NCBI RefSeq assembly: GCF_900101395.1
Contig: NZ_FMZO01000001.1
Coordinates: 372,001-436,000, forward strand
DNA from: Niabella drilacis
GTDB taxonomy: Bacteria; Bacteroidota; Bacteroidia; Chitinophagales; Chitinophagaceae
Length of the DNA: 64,000 nucleotides
Reading direction: 5' to 3'
Shown here: positions 3,830 through 54,702 of the stretch, one piece after another
How the letters are laid out: every line of letters starts with the position of its first letter
Numbering within the stretch: position 1 is the stretch's first letter
Program-made: the position numbers and the translations under genes
Notes under the pieces: generated by a model
Seen by the model: the letters and a program-made list of their open reading frames with translations, nothing else
The model's database searches: none
Told to the model about the DNA's origin: nothing

Positions 3830-6655
3830 ATGATTATGAGAAGAGCAATATTCTTATGCATCACTTGTTTTAGTATAGCCTCCCTGCGGGCACAGATCAG
3901 CTGGCCGCAGGTGACTTCAATCAACAAACCCTGGACAAGATGGTGGTGGGAGGGTAGCGCGGTGAATGAGCAGGGACTTACCTGGAATCTTGAACAATAC
4001 CAGCAGGCGGGTATTGGCGGTACGGAAATTACACCTATCTATGGTATTCATGGCCAGGAGAAAAATTTTGTTGATTTCCTGTCGCCCCGGTGGATGGAAC
4101 TGTTTTCGTTTGCCCTTAAAGAAAGTAAACGACTGGGGTTGGGAGTAGACCTGGCCAATGGTACGGGGTGGCCTTTTGGCGGGCCCTGGGTAAAAGAGGC
4201 GGATGCCAGTAAGTCGGTCTATCTTAAAATTTATTCGTTAAACGGGGGACAGCAGCTAAAAGAGCCGGTAGCGTACCCGCAGGAAGGGTTTGTGCGTGCT
4301 GCTAATAATAGGTCCGCATCGCCGGGTACGGTCAGGAATCCGCTTTCGGATAATAAGGATCTGCAGGAATTGGCATTGGACCAGGTGCAGTTTCCCGGGA
4401 AACTGCCGTTGAAAGCCCTGGTAGCCTATCCCGCAGCGGGGCTTATGACCGATCTTACTGCAAAGGTGGATGCGTCCGGAAAACTGAACTGGACGGCCCC
4501 TGCCGGTACAAAAAGCTGGACCCTTTATGCATTGTTTGAAGGACTGCATGGCAAGATGGTGGAACGGGCGGCACCGGGTGGCGAGGGATATGCCATTGAT
4601 CATTTTTCAAAACAGGCTGCGGTGCACTACTTTAAACGTTTTGATGAGGCCTTCAGGGGATATGATATGGGCTACCTTCGTTCGTTCTTTAATGACTCCT
4701 ATGAAGTGGATGATGCACGTGGTCAGGCCAACTGGACACCGGGGCTCCTTGCCGAATTTAAAAAGAGAAGAGGGTATGATCTGCGCAGCGAGCTGCCGGC
4801 GCTCTTTGGTAAAGATAATCCGGATAAGAACAGTCGCGTGATCTATGATTACCGCTCGGTGATCGATGAATTATTGCTGGAGCATTTTACCATGGAATGG
4901 CAAAAATGGAGCAACGGCAAAGGGAAGATGTTGCGTAACCAGAGCCATGGTTCACCTGCCAATACGCTCGATCTTTATAGTGTGGTGGATATACCGGAAA
5001 CAGAGGGGAATGATATCCTGCGGTTTAAATTTGCAAGCTCTGCTGCCAATGTTACCGGTAAACAGCTGGTTTCATCCGAATCCGCTACCTGGCTCAATGA
5101 ACATTTTCTTTCATCCTGGGGGGATGTAAAAAAAGCGATCGACCTGTATTTTCTCGGTGGAGTAAATCATATTTTTTATCATGGAACCGCTTATTCACCA
5201 AGGGAAGCGGCCTGGCCGGGCTGGCTGTTTTATGCGGCGGTACATTTTCAGCCGGTTAACCCTCAGTGGAAGGACTTTCATGCGCTGAATACCTATATTA
5301 CACGGGTGCAAAGCTTTTTACAAAAAGGCCGGCCGGATAATGACCTGCTGCTATATTATCCCATTGTTGATCGTTATTCGGAACCCGGAAATGCGTTGCT
5401 GCAACATTTTGACGGGATGGAGAAAAATTTTGTCAATACAGCCTTTGAGCAGGTGTCGAAGGAGATGATCGGGAAGGGATATGGATTTGATTTCTTTTCG
5501 GACCGGCAGTTGCAAAAGATCGGGTTTGCATCCGGTATGCTTAACAGTGGCGGCAATCCTTACCGGTCTCTTTTGCTGCCGGCCAATCATTTTATTACAG
5601 AAGAAAGTTTTGAAAAAATACTGTCACTGGCCAAAGCAGGAGCAACAATACTGGTATATAAAGCACTTCCTGAAGATGTACCCGGGCTTTACCGGCTGGA
5701 TGTCCGCCGTAAACGGCTTTCGGACCTGATCCGACAGCTCCGGTTCACGAACCAGGGCTCCATGCAGAAAGCGGTCATTGGCAAAGGAACGGTCTGGATA
5801 AGTGCAAACCTGGAAGCCCTGATGCAGGCGGGTGCTGTGCGAAACGAGAAGCCGGAGGATAAGGATATCTATATGTTGCGGCGGCGGAATGCGGATGGCC
5901 ATGTCTATTTCGTCAACAACCGTTCCGGGCGGCAGGTGGAAGAGTGGGTAACATTGAGCGGGCATGCGGCATCCGTGGCTTTATTTGATGCCATGAGCGG
6001 TGAAAAAGGCCTGGCCGCCTGGCGTCAAAAAGAGGGCGTTGTTGAAGTGCGGGTTCAGATGCCGCCCCATGGGTCGCTGTTGATCCAGACCTTTGATGCG
6101 GAGCGGAAAGGGGCCCTGTTCCCTTATAAGGAGAAAGCGGGCGAAGCAATTGCTGTGGAAGGCAGCTGGACCCTTCGTTTCCTGGAAGGAGGCCCGGCGC
6201 TGCCGGCGCAGCAAATCATCCATACCCTGGGCTCCTGGACAGATACCGGGGGGCAGGCCGTGAAGGATTTTTCGGGCACGGCCAGGTATACGATTGCATT
6301 TAACAAGCCCGGTAGTGCGGCCCGGTACCTGTTAAACCTGGGCCGGGTGCATGAAACGGCAGAAGTGATCCTTAATGGGAAACGTCTGGCTACACTGATC
6401 GGCCCCTCGTTTACTACGGTTATCCCCGCAGATGCATTGCAGGATAAAAATAAACTGGAGATCGTAGTGGCCAACCTGATGGCCAACCGGATCGCTTATA
6501 TGGACCGGAATCAGCTGCCCTGGAAAATATTTTATAATACCAATATGCCGGCAAGGCTAAAGGAAAATGTAAAGGATGGATTGTTGAATGCAGCACACTG
6601 GAAGCCGCAGCCTTCGGGCCTTATGGGACCTGTTACGCTCACCCCTTTAAAATAA
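3830..6655 (+). CDS. Glycoside hydrolase family 106 (alpha-L-rhamnosidase), secreted
   Basis: A 941-residue protein with a signal peptide (about 1-21, ending 'SLRAQ'); a start two codons later (MRRAIF, 3836) is equally possible. The N-terminal block 'PWTRWWWEGSAVNEQGLTWNLEQYQQAGIGGTE' split around residue 35-70 is typical of GH106, as are 'GLGVDLANGTGWPFGGPWV' (about 102-122) and glutamates near 388-390 and 417 in the (beta/alpha)8 region, where the acid and base reside in characterised members. C-terminal beta domains run to residue 941, with a jelly-roll fold including 'RYLLNLGRVHETAEVILNGK'. GH106 enzymes remove terminal L-rhamnose from rhamnogalacturonan I/II and related glycans in the periplasm. 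The next gene starts 5 bases after the stop, so it heads an operon with the GH43-like genes. Confidence 0.88.
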   Translation: MIMRRAIFLCITCFSIASLRAQISWPQVTSINKPWTRWWWEGSAVNEQGLTWNLEQYQQAGIGGTEITPIYGIHGQEKNFVDFLSPRWMELFSFALKESKRLGLGVDLANGTGWPFGGPWVKEADASKSVYLKIYSLNGGQQLKEPVAYPQEGFVRAANNRSASPGTVRNPLSDNKDLQELALDQVQFPGKLPLKALVAYPAAGLMTDLTAKVDASGKLNWTAPAGTKSWTLYALFEGLHGKMVERAAPGGEGYAIDHFSKQAAVHYFKRFDEAFRGYDMGYLRSFFNDSYEVDDARGQANWTPGLLAEFKKRRGYDLRSELPALFGKDNPDKNSRVIYDYRSVIDELLLEHFTMEWQKWSNGKGKMLRNQSHGSPANTLDLYSVVDIPETEGNDILRFKFASSAANVTGKQLVSSESATWLNEHFLSSWGDVKKAIDLYFLGGVNHIFYHGTAYSPREAAWPGWLFYAAVHFQPVNPQWKDFHALNTYITRVQSFLQKGRPDNDLLLYYPIVDRYSEPGNALLQHFDGMEKNFVNTAFEQVSKEMIGKGYGFDFFSDRQLQKIGFASGMLNSGGNPYRSLLLPANHFITEESFEKILSLAKAGATILVYKALPEDVPGLYRLDVRRKRLSDLIRQLRFTNQGSMQKAVIGKGTVWISANLEALMQAGAVRNEKPEDKDIYMLRRRNADGHVYFVNNRSGRQVEEWVTLSGHAASVALFDAMSGEKGLAAWRQKEGVVEVRVQMPPHGSLLIQTFDAERKGALFPYKEKAGEAIAVEGSWTLRFLEGGPALPAQQIIHTLGSWTDTGGQAVKDFSGTARYTIAFNKPGSAARYLLNLGRVHETAEVILNGKRLATLIGPSFTTVIPADALQDKNKLEIVVANLMANRIAYMDRNQLPWKIFYNTNMPARLKENVKDGLLNAAHWKPQPSGLMGPVTLTPLK

Positions 6656-47556: not shown

Positions 47557-47564
47557 CTTTTAAT

Positions 47565-47630
47565 GTTTGAAGTTTGAAGTCTGATGTTCAAATCTGCAAT
47601 ATAACAACTTCGAACATCAACGTCAAACAT
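47565..47630. repeat. Heptad-repeat hairpin in the hisF-hisIE spacer
   Basis: Plus-strand heptads GTTTGAA, GTTTGAA, GTCTGAT, GTTCAAA are followed by their complement (CTTCGAACATCAACGTCAAAC). On the mRNA strand the arms can form a stem of about 20 bp with three mismatches and a 16-base loop. Confidence 0.7.
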
Positions 47631-47638
47631 GGAACCCA

Positions 47639-48394
47639 TTACAGCCGAACGGGGATATTGTTTTCTTTTAAGTAATGCTTCAGCGCGCCGATCCCTATTT
47701 CCCCGAAATGGAAAATGCTGGCGGCCAGGGCGGCATCTGCGGCGCCTGCTTCAAATACTTCTTTGAAATGAGGCATGGTTCCCGCGCCGCCGGAGGCTAT
47801 TACGGGTATAGACAGGCTCTCGCTGATCTGCCTGGTAATATCAATGGCAAACCCGTTTTTAGTGCCATCATTTTCCATGGAGGTCAGCAGGATCTCCCCG
47901 GCACCCAGGTCTGCTACCGTTTTAGCCCATTCGGTTGCAATAAGGCCGGTGGCATTTCTTCCTCCGTGAGTAACCACTTTCCATACTCCATCGAAGCGCT
48001 TTATATCGATCGCTACAACCACACATTGACTGCCAAAGTTCTTTGCCAGATCGCTTACCAGTTGCGGGTTTCTTACAGCTGAAGTGTTTACAGAGATCTT
48101 ATCGGCACCATGGTCCATTAATACCGAAACATCATCTATCGTATTGATACCGCCCCCAACGGTAAACGGGATATTGATATGTGTGGCAATATTGCGTACC
48201 AGTTCCGCCAGGGTCCTGCGTTTATCCACTGTTGCCGTAATATCCAGGAATACCAGTTCATCGGCACCTTCAGTACAATAGCGCATGGCCAGTTCTACCG
48301 GGTCCCCGGCATCCCGTAACTGTACAAAATTGGTGCCTTTTACTGTACGCCCGTCTTTAATGTCCAGGCAGGGAATGATTCTTTTTGCGAGCAT
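47639..48394 (-). CDS. hisF: Imidazole glycerol phosphate synthase cyclase subunit
   Basis: A 251-residue (beta/alpha)8 enzyme. '[23 protein letters not shown]' (Asp11 catalytic), '[18 protein letters not shown]', '[13 protein letters not shown]', '[12 protein letters not shown]', '[17 protein letters not shown]' (Asp about 130 region) and '[17 protein letters not shown]'. It cyclises PRFAR using ammonia from HisH to give IGP and AICAR. The four-helix guest gene lies upstream in the operon. Confidence 0.97.
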
Positions 48395-48400
48395 GATTCT

Positions 48401-48430
48401 GTTTGAGGTTTGAAGTTTTTTGTTTGAGGT
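48401..48430. repeat. Downstream heptad arm of the four-helix gene
   Basis: GTTTGAG, GTTTGAA, GTTTTTT, GTTTGAG in tandem on the plus strand, ending at the stop codon of the four-helix gene. It is inverted relative to the arm at 48833-48862. Confidence 0.7.
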
Positions 48431-48831
48431 TATTTAGACCGACCAGCAATTTTTTGCCCCTTTACTTCGGATTTGTTCAAATAGGCAATGAAGGGTGCAA
48501 TTTTTGACGATAAAGTTGTATATCGTTCATTCAACTCCTGATGCACCGGTTCTTCGATATATTTTTGATCTGACGCTGAATAGAGCTGAGATCTGATTGC
48601 TCCGGAAGACCCCCTGGCGATGCTCAGGAAGTTAATAAACTCAAGTTTAGAGGAACGTTCAAACCCCTCGGCAATATTATCCATCGCAGATCGTGCGGCA
48701 GCCCGGATCTGATCGCGAAATTTGAAAACTTTGAAAAAAGGCTCTTTTTGCGTTAATTCAAAGACCCTTAAGGAGCGCATTCTTGCTATTTGCCCTATTT
48801 CCAGGTCCTCAAAACGGGTATTGGTTGCCAT
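48430..48831 (-). CDS. Four-helix-bundle (23S rRNA intervening-sequence / IVP type) protein
   Basis: About 133 residues from [13 protein letters not shown] (48831); the frame extends four codons. The core '[54 protein letters not shown]' in parts is the S23/IVP signature (R-x-A-x-S-x-x-x-N-I-A-E-G-F-x-R and E-F-x-x-F-L). These proteins form pentameric helical bundles; relatives include the Avd accessory protein of diversity-generating retroelements. Function in operons unknown. It sits between hisA and hisF, where no histidine gene is expected, and lies between two inverted heptad arms. Confidence 0.88.
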
Positions 48832-48832
48832 A

Positions 48833-48862
48833 ACTTCAAACATTAAACCTCAAACGTGAAAC
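48833..48862. repeat. Upstream heptad arm of the four-helix gene
   Basis: On the minus strand it reads GTTTCAC, GTTTGAG, GTTTAAT, GTTTGAA, GT, then T-ATG of the four-helix gene. It resembles the arm in the hisB-hisH spacer (51095-51125) nearly base for base. Confidence 0.7.
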
Positions 48863-48887
48863 AATAGTATTTCTTTGTTAAGAGGAT

Positions 48888-49610
48888 CTATGAATTGTTG
48901 AATATTGTTAATTCTTTCAGACTTATTCGTCCTTCATATATCGCTTTTCCTACAATGGCGCCATAACAGCCAATGGCCTGCAGGTTTTCCAGGTCCTGAA
49001 GGCTGCTGACACCGCCGCTGGCGATCAGCTTCAGGTCGGTTACTTCATCGACTATTTTTTTATACAGCTCATCGGAGCTGCCCTGTAAGAGGCCGTCTTT
49101 GCTGATATCGGTGCAAAAGAACTGCCGGATGCCTTTGGTGCGGTAATGTTTCAGAAAATTAAAAATATTGATTTCCGTGGCCTCGGTCCATCCTTTGATC
49201 ATTATTTTTTCGTCCAGCACATCCGCACCCAGGATGAATTTTTCAACGCCAAAGGCGGTCAGCCAATCCTGGAATACCACGGGCTTCTTAACGGCCATAC
49301 TGCCCACGGCTGCATAAGCTGCTCCTGAGTCAAAAGTGATCTGAACGTCTTTTTCGCTGCTGATGCCGCCGCTGAAGTCGATGACAAGACTGGTTTTTCC
49401 TGCGATCACTTCCAATACTTTCCAGTTGGCAACACGGCCGGCCTTCGCTCCATCCAGGTCTACCAGGTGCAGGCGTTTTAAGCCTGCATCTTCAAACTGC
49501 CGGGCTACCTCCAGCGGATGCTCATTGTATACTTTTTTCTGTGTGTAGTCGCCTTTGCTTAATCGTACGGCTTTTCCTTCTATAATATCTATTGCAGGGA
49601 TAATTTCCAT
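48888..49610 (-). CDS. hisA: ProFAR isomerase
   Basis: A 240-residue (beta/alpha)8 enzyme: 'MEIIPAIDIIEGKAVRLSKGDYTQKKVY' (Asp8 catalytic), 'HLVDLDGAKAG', 'LVIDFSGGISSEKDV', 'FFCTDISKDGLLQG' (second Asp), 'LIASGGVSSLQDLENLQ', 'GAIVGKAIYEG'. It converts ProFAR to PRFAR. Its start is 2 bases from the stop of the KilA-N gene, so they are translationally close. Confidence 0.97.
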   Translation of the reverse strand: MEIIPAIDIIEGKAVRLSKGDYTQKKVYNEHPLEVARQFEDAGLKRLHLVDLDGAKAGRVANWKVLEVIAGKTSLVIDFSGGISSEKDVQITFDSGAAYAAVGSMAVKKPVVFQDWLTAFGVEKFILGADVLDEKIMIKGWTEATEINIFNFLKHYRTKGIRQFFCTDISKDGLLQGSSDELYKKIVDEVTDLKLIASGGVSSLQDLENLQAIGCYGAIVGKAIYEGRISLKELTIFNNS

Positions 49611-49612
49611 TA

Positions 49613-50455
49613 CTACTTTATCTGTTTGATTTGTTTGATCGTGTTGTTTTTTAATAGTGAAGTGAGCTGGCTGATGGCTGTTTGATTCAGTTTTAACAGC
49701 CGTTCATGCTGCGGCAACCCCATTTTAATGAATGCCGCGTTCAGACTTTCCAGGTTGGCTAAGACCAGGAGTTGTTCGATCGTTGCCTGATCTCTTATGT
49801 TTCCTTTTAATGTTCTGTTTTGTTCTCTCCATTGTTTGGCCGTAATGCCGAATAATGCCACATTTAACACATCGGCTTCATGGGCATAGATAATGGCCGC
49901 CTGCTCTTTTGTAATACTTTTCGGGATGATATTTTCTTTAATGGCATCGGTATGAATGCGGTAATTGAGTTTTGAAAGAGTTCTGCTCAGGTCCCAATTT
50001 AACGACAGCCGGCTGTTCTCTTCGTTTTTTAGCCGTTTATAATCTTTGATCAGGTAAAGTTTAAATTCAGGAGAAACCCAGGAGGCAAATTCAAAGGCAA
50101 TATCCGTATGGGCAAAAGTACCACCATAACGCCCCGATTTAGAGATAATACCGATTGCGCCCGTTGCCTCAATCCACTTTTGAGGAGAGAGGGTGAACGC
50201 ATTATAGCCAGCTTCTTTTTTAAACCTATCGAATTCGATAGGTTTAAAATTTTCGTTGTGCAGCTGTTCCCATAATCCGATGAACTGAATTGTATCTTTT
50301 CCCCGCATCCAATTATTGATCACAATAAAGGGCTCATCGCTTTTATACCGGGCAATGTCAGTAAGCGATATATACTCATTTTTAAAGTCTTCTGTATAAA
50401 TTGAAATTTCATACCCCTGGGCATGAATGGTTTCTTTTATCTGCCTGGTTGCCAT
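49613..50455 (-). CDS. KilA-N domain-containing protein inserted in the his operon
   Basis: About 280 residues (MATRQIKETIHAQGYEISI). The KilA-N domain is 'YISLTDIARYKSDEPFIVINNWMRGKDTIQFIGLWEQLHN' in parts, followed by 'WIEATGAIGIISKSGRYGGTFAHTDIAFEFASWVSPEFKLYLIKDYKRLK' in parts. A helical C-terminal region with 'ITKEQAAIIYAHEADVLNVALFGITAKQWRE' completes it. The domain binds DNA and is common in phages and large DNA viruses; chromosomal copies in Bacteroidota are of unknown role. Its placement between hisH and hisA, with 2 bases to hisA, is unusual. A few terminal residues 'KQIKQIK' are repetitive. Confidence 0.88.
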   Translation of the reverse strand: MATRQIKETIHAQGYEISIYTEDFKNEYISLTDIARYKSDEPFIVINNWMRGKDTIQFIGLWEQLHNENFKPIEFDRFKKEAGYNAFTLSPQKWIEATGAIGIISKSGRYGGTFAHTDIAFEFASWVSPEFKLYLIKDYKRLKNEENSRLSLNWDLSRTLSKLNYRIHTDAIKENIIPKSITKEQAAIIYAHEADVLNVALFGITAKQWREQNRTLKGNIRDQATIEQLLVLANLESLNAAFIKMGLPQHERLLKLNQTAISQLTSLLKNNTIKQIKQIK

Positions 50456-50483
50456 CATTTATTTTTTAGTGTTCTTCAATCAC

Positions 50484-51068
50484 TCAAAGTTCTAAAAAAT
50501 TCTTCAATATCTGTTCTCCGGCTTCCGCGCTCTTTTCGGGGTGGAATTGCACTCCATAAAAATTATCCCGGTGTATGGCGCTGCTGAATTCGGTTGCATA
50601 GTTTGTTGTGGCAATCGTAGCGGGGTTCAGCTCCGCATAGTAACTATGCACAAAATAACACCACGCATCTGCGGGTACATTTTTAAATAGCGGGCTTTCT
50701 TTTGTATGAATGCGGTTCCAGCCCATTTGCGGGATCTTCAGATCGGGGCTGATAAATTTTTTAACGGCCACATCAAAAATGCCCAAACAGGGCGTGTCGT
50801 TCTCTTCGCTATGGGCACACAGCAATTGCATCCCAAGGCAAATGCCCAAAAGAGGTTGCTTTGCTTCCCGGATCAACTGGTCCAGCTTCCGTTCTTTCAG
50901 ATAACCCATTGCTGTACTGGCTTCACCCACACCGGGGAAGATGAGCTTGTCTGCCGAGCGGATGGCCTCCGGTTCATCCGTAACGATCGCCTTTACCCCG
51001 ATCCGTTCAAGGGCAAAAAGCACCGATTGAATATTGCCGGCGTTGTATTTTATGATTACGGTATTCAT
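50484..51068 (-). CDS. hisH: Imidazole glycerol phosphate synthase glutaminase subunit
   Basis: About 194 residues starting at 51068 (MNTVIIKYNAGNIQSV); the longer frame from 51110 reads through the heptad repeat. Class I glutaminase: oxyanion strand 'KLIFPGVGEAS', nucleophile Cys77 in 'LLGICLGMQLL', and His/Glu in 'GVQFHPEKSAEAG' (about 173-185). It supplies ammonia to HisF. KilA-N follows after about 28 bases. Confidence 0.97.
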   Translation of the reverse strand: MNTVIIKYNAGNIQSVLFALERIGVKAIVTDEPEAIRSADKLIFPGVGEASTAMGYLKERKLDQLIREAKQPLLGICLGMQLLCAHSEENDTPCLGIFDVAVKKFISPDLKIPQMGWNRIHTKESPLFKNVPADAWCYFVHSYYAELNPATIATTNYATEFSSAIHRDNFYGVQFHPEKSAEAGEQILKNFLEL

Positions 51069-51073
51069 TTTTT

Positions 51074-51125
51074 GTCTAAGGTTTAAAGTTTGAGGTCCAA
51101 CGTCAACCATTAAACCTCACACAGG
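51074..51125. repeat. Heptad-repeat hairpin in the hisB-hisH spacer
   Basis: GTCTAAG, GTTTAAA, GTTTGAG, GTCCAAC in tandem, followed by a complementary arm (TTAAACCTCACACAGG). The right arm matches the arm before the four-helix gene, so this looks like the unoccupied form of that site. Confidence 0.65.
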
Positions 51126-51133
51126 AAACAGTA

Positions 51134-52273
51134 TTATAACAACCCCTTCGTACTGGGCAGCTGATCATTGCCGGGTGTCCTTTTAATGGCCATTTTGATG
51201 GCCTTTGCCAGGGCCTTGAAAATGGCTTCTATCTTATGATGTTCGTTTTCGCCTTCGGCCTTAATGTTCAGGTTCATCTTTGACGCATCGCTGAGCGATT
51301 TAAAGAAATGATAGAACATCTCTGTGGGCATTTCACCGATCTTCTCCCGTTTAAAGGACGCATCCCATACCAGCCAGGGGCGGCCGCCGAAGTCCAGTGC
51401 TACCTGCACCAGCGCATCATCCATGGGCAAACAGAATCCATAGCGTTCGATACCGGCCTTGTTGCCCAATGCCAGGTATAGTGCTTCTCCCAGGGCAATG
51501 GCCGTGTCCTCAATGGTATGGTGCTCGTCAATATGCAGGTCTCCTTTGGTAACAATACCCAGGTTCATGCCGCTGTGACGGCCCAGCTGGTGCAGCATAT
51601 GATCAAAAAAGCCAAGCCCGGTATCAATGGAACATTGACCTGTTCCATCGAGATTGATATTGATCTTTATTTTTGTTTCATTCGTATTGCGCTCGTGCTC
51701 CACAACTCTTGATTGCAGCTGTAACAATGCATAAATGTCCTGCCAGTTGGTGGTCTTTAAAGCAATGGTGGATTCAAGCTCTTTTGCAGAATCGGAGATC
51801 TCCGCGGCACCCAGCGTTTCATCCTGCACCAGCCAGATGCCTTTACAGCCCAGGTTCCTGGCCAGCTGGATATCGGTGATCCGGTCACCGATGACATAAG
51901 ATCCGACAAGATCGTATTCCGGGTTGTTGATGTATTTTGTAAGCATCCCGGTGCCCGGCTTACGGGTGGGCGCGTTTTCCTCCGGGTAGGTTTTGTCAAT
52001 AAAAACTTCACTGAAATGAATGCCGTCGGCTTCAAGATTGCGCATGACAAGATTCTGGGTAGGCCAAAAGGTTTCTTCAGGAAACGTTTCGGTACCCAGC
52101 CCGTCCTGGTTGGTTACCATTACCAGCTCGTAGCCCATTTCCTTTGCGATCTTTCCCAGCCAGGTGAACATACCGGGATAAAAGGTCACTTTATCAATGG
52201 AGTCCAGCTGATAGGTGGGAGGCGCTTCGTAAATCAATGTTCCATCCCTGTCGATAAACAATACTTTTTTCAT
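51134..52273 (-). CDS. hisB: Bifunctional histidinol-phosphatase / imidazoleglycerol-phosphate dehydratase
   Basis: A 379-residue fusion. N-terminal HAD domain (about 1-165): '[12 protein letters not shown]' (Asp8, Asp10), '[14 protein letters not shown]', '[23 protein letters not shown]'. C-terminal IGPD domain (about 185-379): '[18 protein letters not shown]', '[18 protein letters not shown]', '[20 protein letters not shown]', '[16 protein letters not shown]'. It does steps 6 and 8. It starts 4 bases from the hisC stop. Confidence 0.97.
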
Positions 52274-52277
52274 TTTT

Positions 52278-53351
52278 TCAGGCAGTGTATGCTTTTAGAG
52301 TATCAATTAAAATACGGTTTTCGTTTTCTGTACCAACGGTAATGCGCAAACAATCTTCACATCCGGGTACACTGCTGCGGTTCCGGACAATGATCCCCTT
52401 TTGCTGCAGGTACTTAAAGATGTTGTTGGCGTCTGTCATTTTTACCAGCAGGAAGTTGGCGTCCGACGGATACACTTTTTGCGTGTAAGGTAGCTGGTTT
52501 AATTCATTTTCCAGCCAGTTGCGTTGTTCAATGCAGTCCCGGATCCAGGCGTTTACCTGTTCAATATTTTGCAATCCCTGTAAGGCAAGTTCCTGTGTGG
52601 CGATATTAATATTGTAGGGGTATTTTACATTGTTCATCAGCTGGATGATCTCTTTTCCCGCAAATGCCAGCCCGAGGCGTAATGCTGCCAGGCCCCATGC
52701 TTTTGAAAGGGTTTGTAAGACTACCAGGTTGGGATGATCTGCCAGCTGGAGCGACAAGGTTTTTTGCCTGGCATAATTGATATAAGCCTCGTCTACTACT
52801 ACAATGCCATCAAAATTATTCAGGATTACTTCAATATCCTGGCGGTTGATGCTGTTACCGCTGGGGTTGTTGGGCGAACAGATGAAAATGATTTTTGTAT
52901 ACTCATCAACGGCGTCGGCAATGGCCTGTATATCCATCTGGAAACCGGCATTCAGCGGTACTTCTTTTACCTTTATATTATTAATAGCGGCGGCCACGCC
53001 GTACATACCATAGGTGGGGGGCAGGGTAATGATATTATCAAAACCCGGCTCACAAAAAATACGGATCAGTACATCGATGGCTTCGTCGCTGCCGTTCCCG
53101 GTAAAAATGTTTTCTACCGGAAGCCCTTTGATGGCGCTGATGCGTTGTTTGAGCTTTGTTTGTACGGGGTCCGGGTAACGGTTGAGCTGCTCCTGCAGTT
53201 CATTGATAGTAAGGGCTACCGGTGACCCAATGGCATTTTCGTTGGCATCTAACATCACGCTGGCATCGCCGCTGAACTCATGCCGGGCAGTGGAGTAGGG
53301 CGCAAGGTTCTTAATGTTTTCCCGGACCAGGTATTCTAAATTAAACTCCAT
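52278..53351 (-). CDS. hisC: Histidinol-phosphate aminotransferase
   Basis: A 357-residue PLP fold type I enzyme: '[19 protein letters not shown]', '[17 protein letters not shown]', '[14 protein letters not shown]', '[10 protein letters not shown]', and the PLP lysine in '[17 protein letters not shown]' (about 215). Transfers the amino group to imidazole acetol phosphate. 12 bases to hisD. Confidence 0.96.
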
Positions 53352-53363
53352 ATTATCTTTTTG

Positions 53364-54641
53364 TTACAGGTTGCTCAATCTTACTTTAACGGCATTGCTG
53401 TGCGCCTGTAAACCTTCGGCCTCGGCCATAGTGGTTACGGTGGCTGCAATGTTTTTTAGCCCCCTTGCCGTGAGCTGCTGGAAAGTGATTTTTTTATAGA
53501 AACTGTCAAGTGAAACACCGCTGTAGGCTGCGGCATACCCATTGGTAGGCAAGGTGTGGTTGGTGCCACTGGCATAGTCACCGGCGCTTTCCGGCGAATG
53601 GTTGCCGATAAACACCGACCCTGCTGCCGTTATGTTTTTTAACAACCCGCTTCCTGTTTTGCAGGCCAGTATCAGGTGCTCGGGAGCATAAAAGTTGGAT
53701 AATTCAACGGCTTCTTTAAGGCTTTTTACCACTACGATACGCGAATGTTCCAGGGCTTTTGCGGCAATATCCTTCCGGGGCAGGGTTTTGAGCTGCGTCG
53801 TAACAGCCTTTTCGATTTTTGTTACCATGCCTGTTTGTGTGGTAATACAGATCACCTGCGAGTCGGGGCCATGCTCTGCCTGGGCCAGCAGGTCGGCTGC
53901 CACAAAACGGGGATCTGCAGTTCCATCGGCAATCACCAGCACTTCGGATGGTCCGGCGGGCATATCAATGGCCACCCGGTTCTGCACCAGCTGTTTGGCC
54001 ATGGTCACATATTGATTGCCGGGCCCAAAGATCTTAAAAACTGCCGGGATGCTCTGTGTGCCATAAGCCATTGCTGCAATCGCCTGTGCGCCCCCGGTTT
54101 TAAATATTTTTTGAATGCCGCATAATGAGGCTGCATATAAAACGGCGGGATGCACCTGCTGCTCTTTGTTGCAGGGGGTGCACAATATTACTTCCTTACA
54201 TCCTGCAAGGCGGGCGGGCAGGCCCAGCATCAACACCGTGGAAAACAGTGGTGCGGATCCTCCGGGAATGTACAGACCTACTTTTTCAATGGGGCGGCTC
54301 TCGCGCCAGCAGGTAATACCGCTCATCGGGGCGATCTTTTTTGCCGCTTCTTTTTGAGAGCGGTGAAAGGCTTCTATGTTCTTTTTTGCTTGCTTTAAAG
54401 CGGCTTTCAGTGGCGGAGGAACCTGTCCGGAGGCCTCTTTTATTTCGGTTGCGGTTACCGCGATGGAGCTGAGTTCCACACCGTCAAACTTTTTACTAAG
54501 ATCCCGCAGTGCCATATCTCCGTTCGTTTGAACTGAAGACAGGATCTCCGTTACCGCAGGGATGAGTTGCTGGTTGTTCTGGAGCGGACGGGCACAGATC
54601 TCCGGCCAAAGTTCTGAAGAAGGATATTTGTAGAATTTCAA
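53364..54641 (-). CDS. hisD: Histidinol dehydrogenase
   Basis: A 425-residue Zn-dependent enzyme: 'GLYIPGGSAPLFSTVLMLGLPA', 'IFGPGNQYVTMAKQLV', 'IDMPAGPSEVLVIADGTADPRFVAADLLAQAEHGPDS' in parts, with the zinc/catalytic 'QAEHGP', 'NFYAPEHLIL' and 'GNHSPESAGDYASGTNHTLPT'. Oxidises histidinol to histidine. A heptad hairpin separates it from hisG. Confidence 0.97.
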   Translation of the reverse strand: MKFYKYPSSELWPEICARPLQNNQQLIPAVTEILSSVQTNGDMALRDLSKKFDGVELSSIAVTATEIKEASGQVPPPLKAALKQAKKNIEAFHRSQKEAAKKIAPMSGITCWRESRPIEKVGLYIPGGSAPLFSTVLMLGLPARLAGCKEVILCTPCNKEQQVHPAVLYAASLCGIQKIFKTGGAQAIAAMAYGTQSIPAVFKIFGPGNQYVTMAKQLVQNRVAIDMPAGPSEVLVIADGTADPRFVAADLLAQAEHGPDSQVICITTQTGMVTKIEKAVTTQLKTLPRKDIAAKALEHSRIVVVKSLKEAVELSNFYAPEHLILACKTGSGLLKNITAAGSVFIGNHSPESAGDYASGTNHTLPTNGYAAAYSGVSLDSFYKKITFQQLTARGLKNIAATVTTMAEAEGLQAHSNAVKVRLSNL

Positions 54642-54651
54642 TTTGCTTAAT

Positions 54652-54685
54652 GTTTAAGGTTTAAGGTTCAGACTTTAAACGCTGA
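54652..54685. repeat. Heptad-repeat hairpin in the hisG-hisD spacer
   Basis: GTTTAAG, GTTTAAG, GTTCAGA and a reverse arm CTGAACCTTGAAC. On the mRNA strand a 13-bp stem with one mismatch can form. Confidence 0.65.
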
Positions 54686-54702
54686 ACCTTGAACAAGTAA
54701 AA

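Follow-up and report, generated by a model that had tools for sequence, protein, structure and literature searches.

Genes of the S23 (IVP) family often lie between inverted arrays of locus-specific 7-bp repeats at operon gene boundaries

Introduction

The histidine (his) operon of Niabella drilacis lies on the minus strand of a 64,000-nucleotide stretch of contig NZ_FMZO01000001.1 (positions 372,001 to 436,000; the whole stretch is called the window below), and tandem 7-bp units of the form GTTTRAN (heptads) fill four of its intercistronic spacers. One of these spacers, between hisA and hisF, holds a gene of the 23S rRNA intervening-sequence protein family (IVP; also S23, PF05635) with a heptad array on either side in inverted orientation. 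Here we report that this arrangement recurs at IVP genes across the family Chitinophagaceae, the phylum and plasmids, and we regard the association of IVP genes with inverted heptad arms as virtually certain. The arms are inverted and periodic and use a unit sequence, or dialect, that is private to the locus; the genes run with the surrounding operon, control genes have no inverted arms, and a single site can carry the cassette in one species and be empty in another. The association suggests that the IVP protein and its flanking repeats work together.

Results

IVP genes and their inverted arms

The coordinates of the hisA/hisF cassette are given in Table 1 together with those of the other heptad spacers. 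The IVP open reading frame (ORF) reaches 48843, with a longer start inside the heptads, and the E value was scored for the ORF at 48430-48843. Heptads adjoin the IVP start and stop codons both here and at several other loci. The duplex predicted between the two window arms has an energy of -35.7 kcal/mol. A sequence-only reading of the window had treated this spacer as one of four heptad-filled spacers of the operon; the heptads are there, but the spacer is not a plain one, since its two arrays stand ~390 bp apart with a gene between them. That reading recognized the heptads and mentioned neither the IVP gene, nor other dialects, nor a link between gene and repeat.

Table 1. Heptad-bearing features of the his operon and an unrelated insert, in window coordinates (MFE, minimum free energy in kcal/mol; z against dinucleotide shuffles)
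Feature	Position	Strand	Remarks
Whole hisA/hisF cassette: 5' arm, IVP gene, 3' arm	48395..48887	-	From spacer comparison among species
IVP gene (PF05635, 23S_rRNA_IVP / S23 / four-helix-bundle)	48430..48831	-	E 3.7e-26
5' arm GTTTCAC GTTTGAG GTTTAAT GTTTGAA GTTATGG	48828..48862	-	Last unit overlaps IVP start codon
3' arm (inverted) GTTTGAG GTTTGAA GTTTTTT GTTTGAG GTTATTT	48401..48435	+	Last unit overlaps IVP stop codon
Solo heptad hairpin hisF/hisIE	47558..47635	+	MFE -24.3, z -3.46
Solo heptad hairpin hisB/hisH	51074..51129	+	MFE -18.4, z -2.89
Solo heptad hairpin hisG/hisD	54645..54694	+	MFE -13.9, z -3.04
KilA-N gene, hisH to hisA	49613..50458	-	Second insert in the operon, unrelated and armless; serves as internal negative control

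The window genome has 13 IVP matches, three of which fell under the cut-off of the protein family and were left out. When the flanks of the remaining ten genes were read by eye, nearly all appeared to lie between inverted period-7 repeats (one had period 14) with a locus-specific unit; at the strict threshold, lag 7 passed in 4/10. These ten loci were combined with 90 from other members of the family (30 loci and 60 from a ranked list) into a set of 100 in which high-scoring IVPs are favoured. With a lag counted as passed at 20/28 matches, lag 7 passed in 49 loci and lag 8 in 12; of their multiples, lags 14, 16 and 21 passed in 26, 9 and 14 loci, respectively, and the remaining lags in 0-2. 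When the 100 candidate downstream arms were ranked by inverted match, the locus's own arm came first in 43 loci (expected 1) and among the first five in 73 (expected 5). The inverted comparison of the arms outscored the direct one in 86 loci, and the direct outscored the inverted in 12. Five loci with coordinates spoiled by contig ends (L077, L085, L092, L093 and L098) are within these lag and own-partner counts and were dropped from the analyses of 95 loci below; the DNA counts retain L016, L099 and L147, whose IVP genes contain in-frame stops.

As a control we used genes of the window's contig (C29; 804,635 bases, including 1,595 N), taken as ORF picks rather than from annotation. A one-sided lag-7 array was found at 33 of 619 genes and a two-sided one at none, and an inverted score of at least 32 occurred at a single gene, itself an IVP gene. 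In the phylum-wide sample, 157 of 198 genomes had an IVP match, 153 of them above the protein-family cut-off. Under one conservative flank rule, an inverted score of at least 32 was reached by 12 of 30 IVP loci, which are among the best-scoring, by 0/16 KilA-N loci (one of 17 was unusable) and by 0/30 HTH_3 loci. Lag 7 passed at 10, 1 and 2 of these loci, respectively, and lag 8 at 7, 1 and 0. Period 8 takes the place of period 7 in IVP clades 3, 5, 7 and 11 (e.g. L151, L158, L182, L196, L200 and L201). No phage IVP match was found with one query, and none of the 95 loci had a TAACTGA-like arm at 12/14 matches over two units in the inward orientation.

Arm length is mostly 3-5 units with a drop after five, an estimate that varies with the seed length, and a count of exactly five units per arm was rejected on these grounds. 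Some positions of the unit are constant and others vary inside one array, unlike the products of simple slippage. The predicted arm duplex was -29.7 kcal/mol for arms of the same locus and -10.0 kcal/mol for arms of different loci. The neighbouring ORFs were both on the IVP strand at 78/95 loci, both on the opposite strand at 7/95, and mixed or missing at 10/95. G exceeded C in the 5' arm as well as in the reverse complement of the 3' arm in 47/60 cases, and C exceeded G in the two of them in 5/60. The strand of the neighbours and this G/C polarity together point to a role in RNA. Units containing a stop codon were more frequent than in shuffled arms on both sides (0.625 versus 0.453 in the 5' arm, 0.433 versus 0.326 in the 3' arm); a stop codon in every unit was rejected as the rationale of the arms, the 3' arm showing a lift similar to that of the 5' arm.

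IVP loci on plasmids

Plasmid IVP genes were found in Nostoc, Calothrix, Anabaena, Pseudanabaena, Geminocystis, Euhalothece, Picosynechococcus and others, as well as in Gemmatirosa (Gemmatimonadota, period 8), Azospirillum (Alphaproteobacteria) and Riemerella. Two overlapping listings (17 and 32 records) gave 25 loci once near-duplicates and short partial matches had been left out; in L346, L356 and L360, where the gene is unannotated, its ends were placed by eye. Lag 7 passed in 17/25 and lag 8 in 7/25, a few low-complexity arms passing both, and the locus's own downstream arm was the best of 25 in 17. The period was 8 at the Leptolyngbya and Picosynechococcus loci, as at that of Gemmatirosa. 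Functional operons holding a plasmid IVP gene were cas6-IVP-cas4, cmr2-IVP-cmr3 and an iron-sulfur assembly gene with sufB; between nrdB and nrdA the IVP gene is antisense, and other loci lie among hypothetical or conjugation genes. The CRISPR-operon cases (L341, L348 and L350; cmr2/cmr3 and cas6/cas4) are period-7- or period-8-armed IVP genes on cyanobacterial plasmids, and are probably passengers rather than CRISPR components.

Turnover at hisA/hisF and co-divergence of protein and arms

Among the 23 species tabulated, the hisA/hisF spacer is only 2-23 bp in 12 (6/17 within the genus), 66-76 bp with heptads only in three, 73-198 bp without a clear lag-7 signal in five, and 473-496 bp with IVP and heptads in three, namely the window genome and two others. 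A fourth IVP gene at this boundary (L238) is cut by a contig end, and L238, L253 and L255 stand outside this tabulation. The IVPs at hisA/hisF are 56-60% identical, whereas the flanking hisA and hisF are 86-94% identical, and the heptad dialect is GTTTGAN in the window genome versus GATTTSW in others. At hisD/hisC, one-sided arrays are present in L361, L363 and L365, and the spacer is 1-12 bp in the window genome and two others. Of the explanations offered by the sequence-only reading, a mark of a replicating element comes closest and is partly supported, as a putative one: the arrays flank their own gene family and occur with the gene, alone or not at all at one boundary in sister species.

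Over the 95 family loci, IVP protein similarity correlated with arm similarity among pairs below 0.8 similarity (Mantel r 0.406; highest of 999 permutations, 0.131). When pairs having common flanking genes were removed, r was 0.171, still above the highest permutation of 0.128; among the remaining, non-syntenic pairs the heptad sequence tracks the IVP protein only weakly.

An arginine-operon clade (A2; L256-L335) was sampled as the best 80 out of 201 relatives in named genomes, to which all of its counts refer. The IVP gene lies at argC/argD in 59/80, at a different arg boundary, or one only partly visible, in 12/80, and without a recognized adjoining arg gene in 9/80; two copies each were seen at argD/argF and argF/argB. 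Three loci were too short, and the 77 used occupy mostly one orthologous site and are not independent. A lag-7 arm is retained in 57/77, and on both sides in 28. The clade spans Chitinophagaceae, Pedobacter and other Sphingobacteriaceae, Cytophaga and Bacteroidales, a range that suggests long joint retention of arms and gene. The own-partner test, in which the own arm was best in 6/77, is uninformative here because the loci share one dialect. Movement of the cassette as a unit was rejected for this clade, whose flanks are mostly common to the copies.

In 117 genomes of the family, at least three GTTTRAN matches were found in 26/87 genomes with an IVP gene and in 0/30 without (Fisher p 2e-4, Spearman 0.54; these genome-level statistics ignore relatedness and genome size). 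The backwards pattern also reached at least three matches in 33/87 and 0/30, respectively; other period-7 dialects have arrays that match this control and so contaminate it, and it outnumbers GTTTRAN in 5 of the 26 genomes. GTTTRAN exceeded twice the backwards control in 17/87 genomes with IVP and in 0/30 without (p 0.006, relatedness again ignored). One genome with 17 GTTTRAN matches (G064) contains a GTTTRAN-armed IVP gene, L215. A clean autonomous/non-autonomous pair with one dialect in every genome was not supported, given genomes G108 and G060 (see Discussion).

Period-7 repeats across the window genome

GTTTRAN heptads are a dispersed intergenic family. The sequence-only reading named two outcomes that would refute it, an equal rate of the pattern in shuffled intergenic sequence and restriction to this operon; neither was found. 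Three-unit matches of at least 16/18 numbered 48 on the window's contig versus 1, 0 and 0 in the three sequences simulated with a third-order Markov model, and the whole genome contains 217 three-unit GTTTRAN matches with at most two mismatches versus 8 for the backwards pattern. Chance was further ruled out by lag and period controls: GTTTRA pairs on the contig occur 26 times at spacing 7 versus 0-3 times at spacings 6 and 8-13, and clusters called without any motif number 13 at period 7 (11 of them intergenic) versus 0-3 at lags other than 7 and its multiples. Across 440 intergenic regions the match fraction was 0.279 at lag 7 versus 0.261-0.267 at lags 5, 6 and 8; it was high at lags 1 and 3 too (0.329 and 0.283), and in coding DNA the lag-7 value of 0.248 was unremarkable. 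The window genome has further dialects, including TCTGATG, TTCAGCN and AAATCTC. GTTTRAN and GATTTSW matches numbered 71 and 13 in the window genome versus 42 and 136 in genome G125.

Several arrays on this contig (G000:C29) deserve separate mention. The TCTGATG array at 190368-190493 and the TTCAGCN array at 331784-331928 are long, near-exact and intergenic, with divergent ORFs on either side, and are possible sites of copy-number variation. Three heptad arrays (~40737, 581800 and 699654) terminate in a GTTAGATCCG box, and two of them run on into a common ~50-bp stretch, possibly as part of a larger dispersed repeat. At 755050-755091, six heptads lie in frame within a coding gene, adding ~14 residues in what looks like a gain within the gene; we take the gene to be YggS/PLPBP-like, and the inserted residues precede a motif that is presumably conserved.

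Heptad spacers of the his operon

A scan of the window for matches of at least 15/18 to three GTTTRAN units gave, outside the his spacers, one lone 15/18 match at 4223. Heptads were confirmed in all four spacers named by the sequence-only reading (Table 1), and so was its claim that the 7-bp register is kept rather than the sequence, which is true across species and across loci. Its three hairpin spacers likewise fold in prediction, but the stems of 13-20 bp it described did not hold: the longest unbroken predicted stems are 11 bp (hisF/hisIE), 12 bp (hisB/hisH) and 9 bp (hisG/hisD), out of 26, 18 and 13 total predicted pairs, respectively. In a comparison of few sequences, made without a shuffle control, the hisB/hisH fold was predicted in 7/7 species, weakly in two, and its energy ranged from -9.1 to -27.0 kcal/mol in six sister species with differing sequence; one two-sided pair change was seen across the seven, too few sequences for a formal test. 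Prediction thus supports the folding of the his heptads as mRNA hairpins, which may, as the sequence-only reading proposed, influence mRNA stability or differential expression. Transcription terminators were ruled out, as the sequence following the three solo hairpins on the operon strand is A-rich rather than a U-tract and none of the 12 terminator-like matches of the region falls on a his hairpin. A promoter-like 10/12 match with an extended TG (47626-47598, minus strand) overlaps the hisF/hisIE hairpin and may be a chance match, because the region scores below shuffles (10 versus 14 promoter-like matches).

The ends of the KilA-N gene, the second insert in the operon, form a predicted duplex of -14.3 kcal/mol. 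Among the window and L361-L375, some species of the genus have an almost complete KilA-N gene at this position, L362 and L364 have a remnant or a partial match, and in several others it was not found, consistent with an insert that has its own turnover. A perfect 16-bp inverted repeat (TTTTAAACCTATCGAA / TTCGATAGGTTTAAAA) lies within its reading frame at 50218-50249.

Fold of the IVP protein

AlphaFold2 predicted a four-helix bundle for the Pfam region of the window IVP (pLDDT 95.5). The closest solved folds were the S23-family structures 2gsc and 2rld, and no enzyme was among the close structural matches. Weaker matches were Avd (4dwl) and the Avd chains of the reverse-transcriptase ribonucleoprotein of diversity-generating retroelements (8ub7 and 8ub8), with a template-modelling (TM) score of about 0.7, a probability of up to 0.98 and E values of 0.65-1.4; PF05635 has been said to resemble Avd (PMC10053308). 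According to PMC4990558, the Xanthomonas S23p is a homopentamer of four-helix bundles and the S23/IVP proteins have no known function. Other reports describe an IVP gene of Flavobacterium psychrophilum that is expressed and altered in biofilm (PMC5787105), one of Flavobacterium columnare between the guanylate kinase and nicotinate adenylyltransferase genes that is tabulated as a phage element (PMC5524665), and an IVP domain named in a large CRISPR survey (PMC10910872).

Discussion

We propose that the IVP genes and their arms form mRNA counterparts of the 23S rRNA intervening sequences (IVSs), in which the IVP protein recognizes its own heptads and the arms pair around its gene. On the sequence evidence assembled here we hold this reading to be evenly poised between right and wrong. 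The cassette would be an IVP gene between inverted arrays of mostly 3-5 tandem 7-bp units (8-bp in some clades), living at gene boundaries within operons, and heptads would be either its arms or gene-less remnants and relatives. Recognition by the IVP protein would explain why some positions of the unit drift whereas others, and the spacing, stay constant. Within the polycistronic transcript, pairing of the arms may create a stem whose loop holds the IVP gene, the arrangement of 23S rRNA IVSs, which are cut by RNase III. The solo his hairpins would then be gene-less versions, perhaps bound by IVP in trans.

Several observations weigh against this proposal. IVP binding and excision of the cassette are both inferences from sequence. 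Shuffling the units of an arm cost only ~2 kcal/mol (-27.7 versus -29.7), and complementarity in the order of the units was weak yet present (mean z 0.61, Wilcoxon p 3e-4); most of the similarity between arms therefore reflects a common motif, not exact pairing. With signals this small we rejected exact unit-order pairing as the main constraint, and motif, register and polarity therefore outweigh it. At the threshold used, 25 of the 95 family loci had no heptad arms, some of these being period-8 loci, the array was one-sided or absent at about 7/25 plasmid loci, and one-sided (never two-sided) lag-7 arrays also occurred at the 33 ordinary genes of the contig control. Protein-arm co-divergence is largely vertical, by descent at shared sites, and arg-clade IVPs are concentrated at argC/argD (59 of the best 80 of 201). 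Finally, of the two genomes richest in GTTTRAN, one (G108, 165 matches) has a sole IVP gene that is not GTTTRAN-armed, and in the other (G060, 275 matches) none of the four IVPs read, of five, is GTTTRAN-armed.

Two rival explanations keep a function for the IVP protein. The cassette may be a mobile element at the DNA level: IVP would bind the arms as terminal inverted repeats, and an enzyme supplied in trans would mobilize both the cassette and gene-less copies of it, much as RAYT (the REP-associated tyrosine transposase) does for repetitive extragenic palindromic (REP) sequences. Inverted arms with constant polarity, presence and absence at one site, plasmid carriage and the spread of one IVP clade over argC/argD, argD/argF and argF/argB, with 9/80 of the best 80 of 201 lacking a recognized adjoining arg gene, are all in its favour. 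We consider it unlikely nonetheless: the close structural matches of IVP include no enzyme, the 78:7 bias towards sense orientation is more than an element acting in DNA would require, flanking genes are shared by most copies in the best-sampled clade, and G108 and G060 show a mismatch between IVP dialect and dispersed repeats. The other rival makes IVP a post-transcriptional regulator adopted by the his, arg and other operons, reading the heptads in its own mRNA and at solo sites with a logic like that of TRAP or CsrA. Retention in the arg operon across many genera would fit such a regulator, as would the heptads that adjoin the IVP start and stop codons in the window and at several other loci, the same-dialect solos at three other his boundaries and the expression change of the F. 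psychrophilum gene in biofilm (PMC5787105). The hisA/hisF boundary is, however, empty in 12/23 species tabulated, and the his operon therefore does not need the cassette; the host loci are moreover unrelated (his, arg, cas, suf, and nrdB/nrdA with IVP antisense). We judge host regulation improbable as well.

The remaining two dispense with the protein, and both are very improbable in our view. Slippage heptamers could accumulate neutrally in spacers where IVP genes happen to sit; an earlier survey is quoted (PMC4679880) to the effect that heptanucleotides were the commonest 5-11-nt repeat class in most genomes covered and that slippage may act over 7 nt, and long near-exact arrays such as the TCTGATG array at C29:190368-190493 do exist. 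Neutral repeats do not predict the inversion of the arms, a dialect common to both, the G/C polarity or control genes without inverted arms, nor units that vary at some positions and are constant at others, and this explanation is already disfavoured. Selection for plain mRNA hairpins at gene boundaries (for stability, processing or insulation), unrelated to IVP, draws on the shuffle z values of the solo spacers in the window and on the fold predicted, without a shuffle control, in sister species despite sequence change. It leaves the 7-nt register and the link with IVP unexplained, its hairpins have no U-tract, and 0/12 terminator-like matches fall on them; its prospects are the slimmest.

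Two ingredients are already known: 23S rRNA IVSs that carry an S23 gene and have stem-forming ends (PMC4990558), and heptamer repeats (PMC4679880). In Coxiella, the IVS is described as a 28-bp stem with the S23 gene in its loop, excised by RNase III (PMC4990558). The window IVP belongs to the same protein family as the genes in the IVSs of Coxiella and Leptospira, and complementary ends able to form a stem round the gene are common to both. The window cassette, in contrast, lies between hisA and hisF and not within a 23S rRNA gene, and heptad cassettes have tandem 7- or 8-bp locus-specific arms, occur in several copies per genome and have solo forms. Because it has the gene and stem-like ends and lies outside rRNA, we file the mRNA cassette as a variant of the IVS. 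A search of titles and abstract openings, which left subscription journals and preprints mostly uncovered, found no publication tying IVP genes to inverted heptad arms or IVP cassettes to mRNA.

Among repeats, TAACTGA heptamer direct repeats have been described in Beggiatoaceae, Cyanobacteria and five Bacteroidetes, and their author raised a repeat-binding protein as a possible mobile part (PMC4679880, as far as available). They have tandem 7-bp units in common with the IVP heptads, and are likewise mostly intergenic, often near start codons and patchily distributed; they use a single fixed heptamer, arranged nearly always in direct arrays, and that part of the report identifies no binding protein. 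The literature looked at named no partner protein for heptanucleotide repeats. The short tandemly repeated repetitive (STRR) sequences of cyanobacteria are 7-bp, tandem and mostly intergenic. The IVP heptads differ from both TAACTGA repeats and STRRs in having many dialects with constant and variable positions, inverted arms and an associated gene. REP sequences and their hairpin-forming doublets (REPINs), with RAYT, are dispersed intergenic palindromes plus a gene flanked by inverted copies. Heptad copies have a common period and motif but no one palindrome, the repeat being a periodic array, and no transposase was seen at the heptad cassettes, though no search for a Y1 (RAYT) gene was made. 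The fold of Avd from diversity-generating retroelements is similar to that of the window IVP, whose adjoining genes are his genes; no search for a reverse transcriptase or for template and variable repeats was made.

A bolder form of our proposal would make S23/IVP proteins readers of a tandem 7- or 8-nt code. Each pentamer would sit on as many as five units of the dialect that belongs to it, the protein would co-diverge with that dialect, and the cassettes would be cross-phylum mRNA intervening sequences that seed operon hairpins. We put it forward tentatively, as more probably wrong than right; the binding of up to five units by a pentamer is our own inference. If true, it would link two old puzzles: what S23/IVP proteins do, and where the heptanucleotide repeats of cyanobacteria, Beggiatoaceae and Bacteroidota come from. 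For genome miners there is a warning, as IVP genes in cas operons look like passengers between heptad or octad arms. Whether the cassette is now a selfish insert or a regulator adopted by biosynthetic operons, both of which we have considered, the link between IVP and heptads opens the function of S23/IVP proteins and of the repeats to direct biochemical test.

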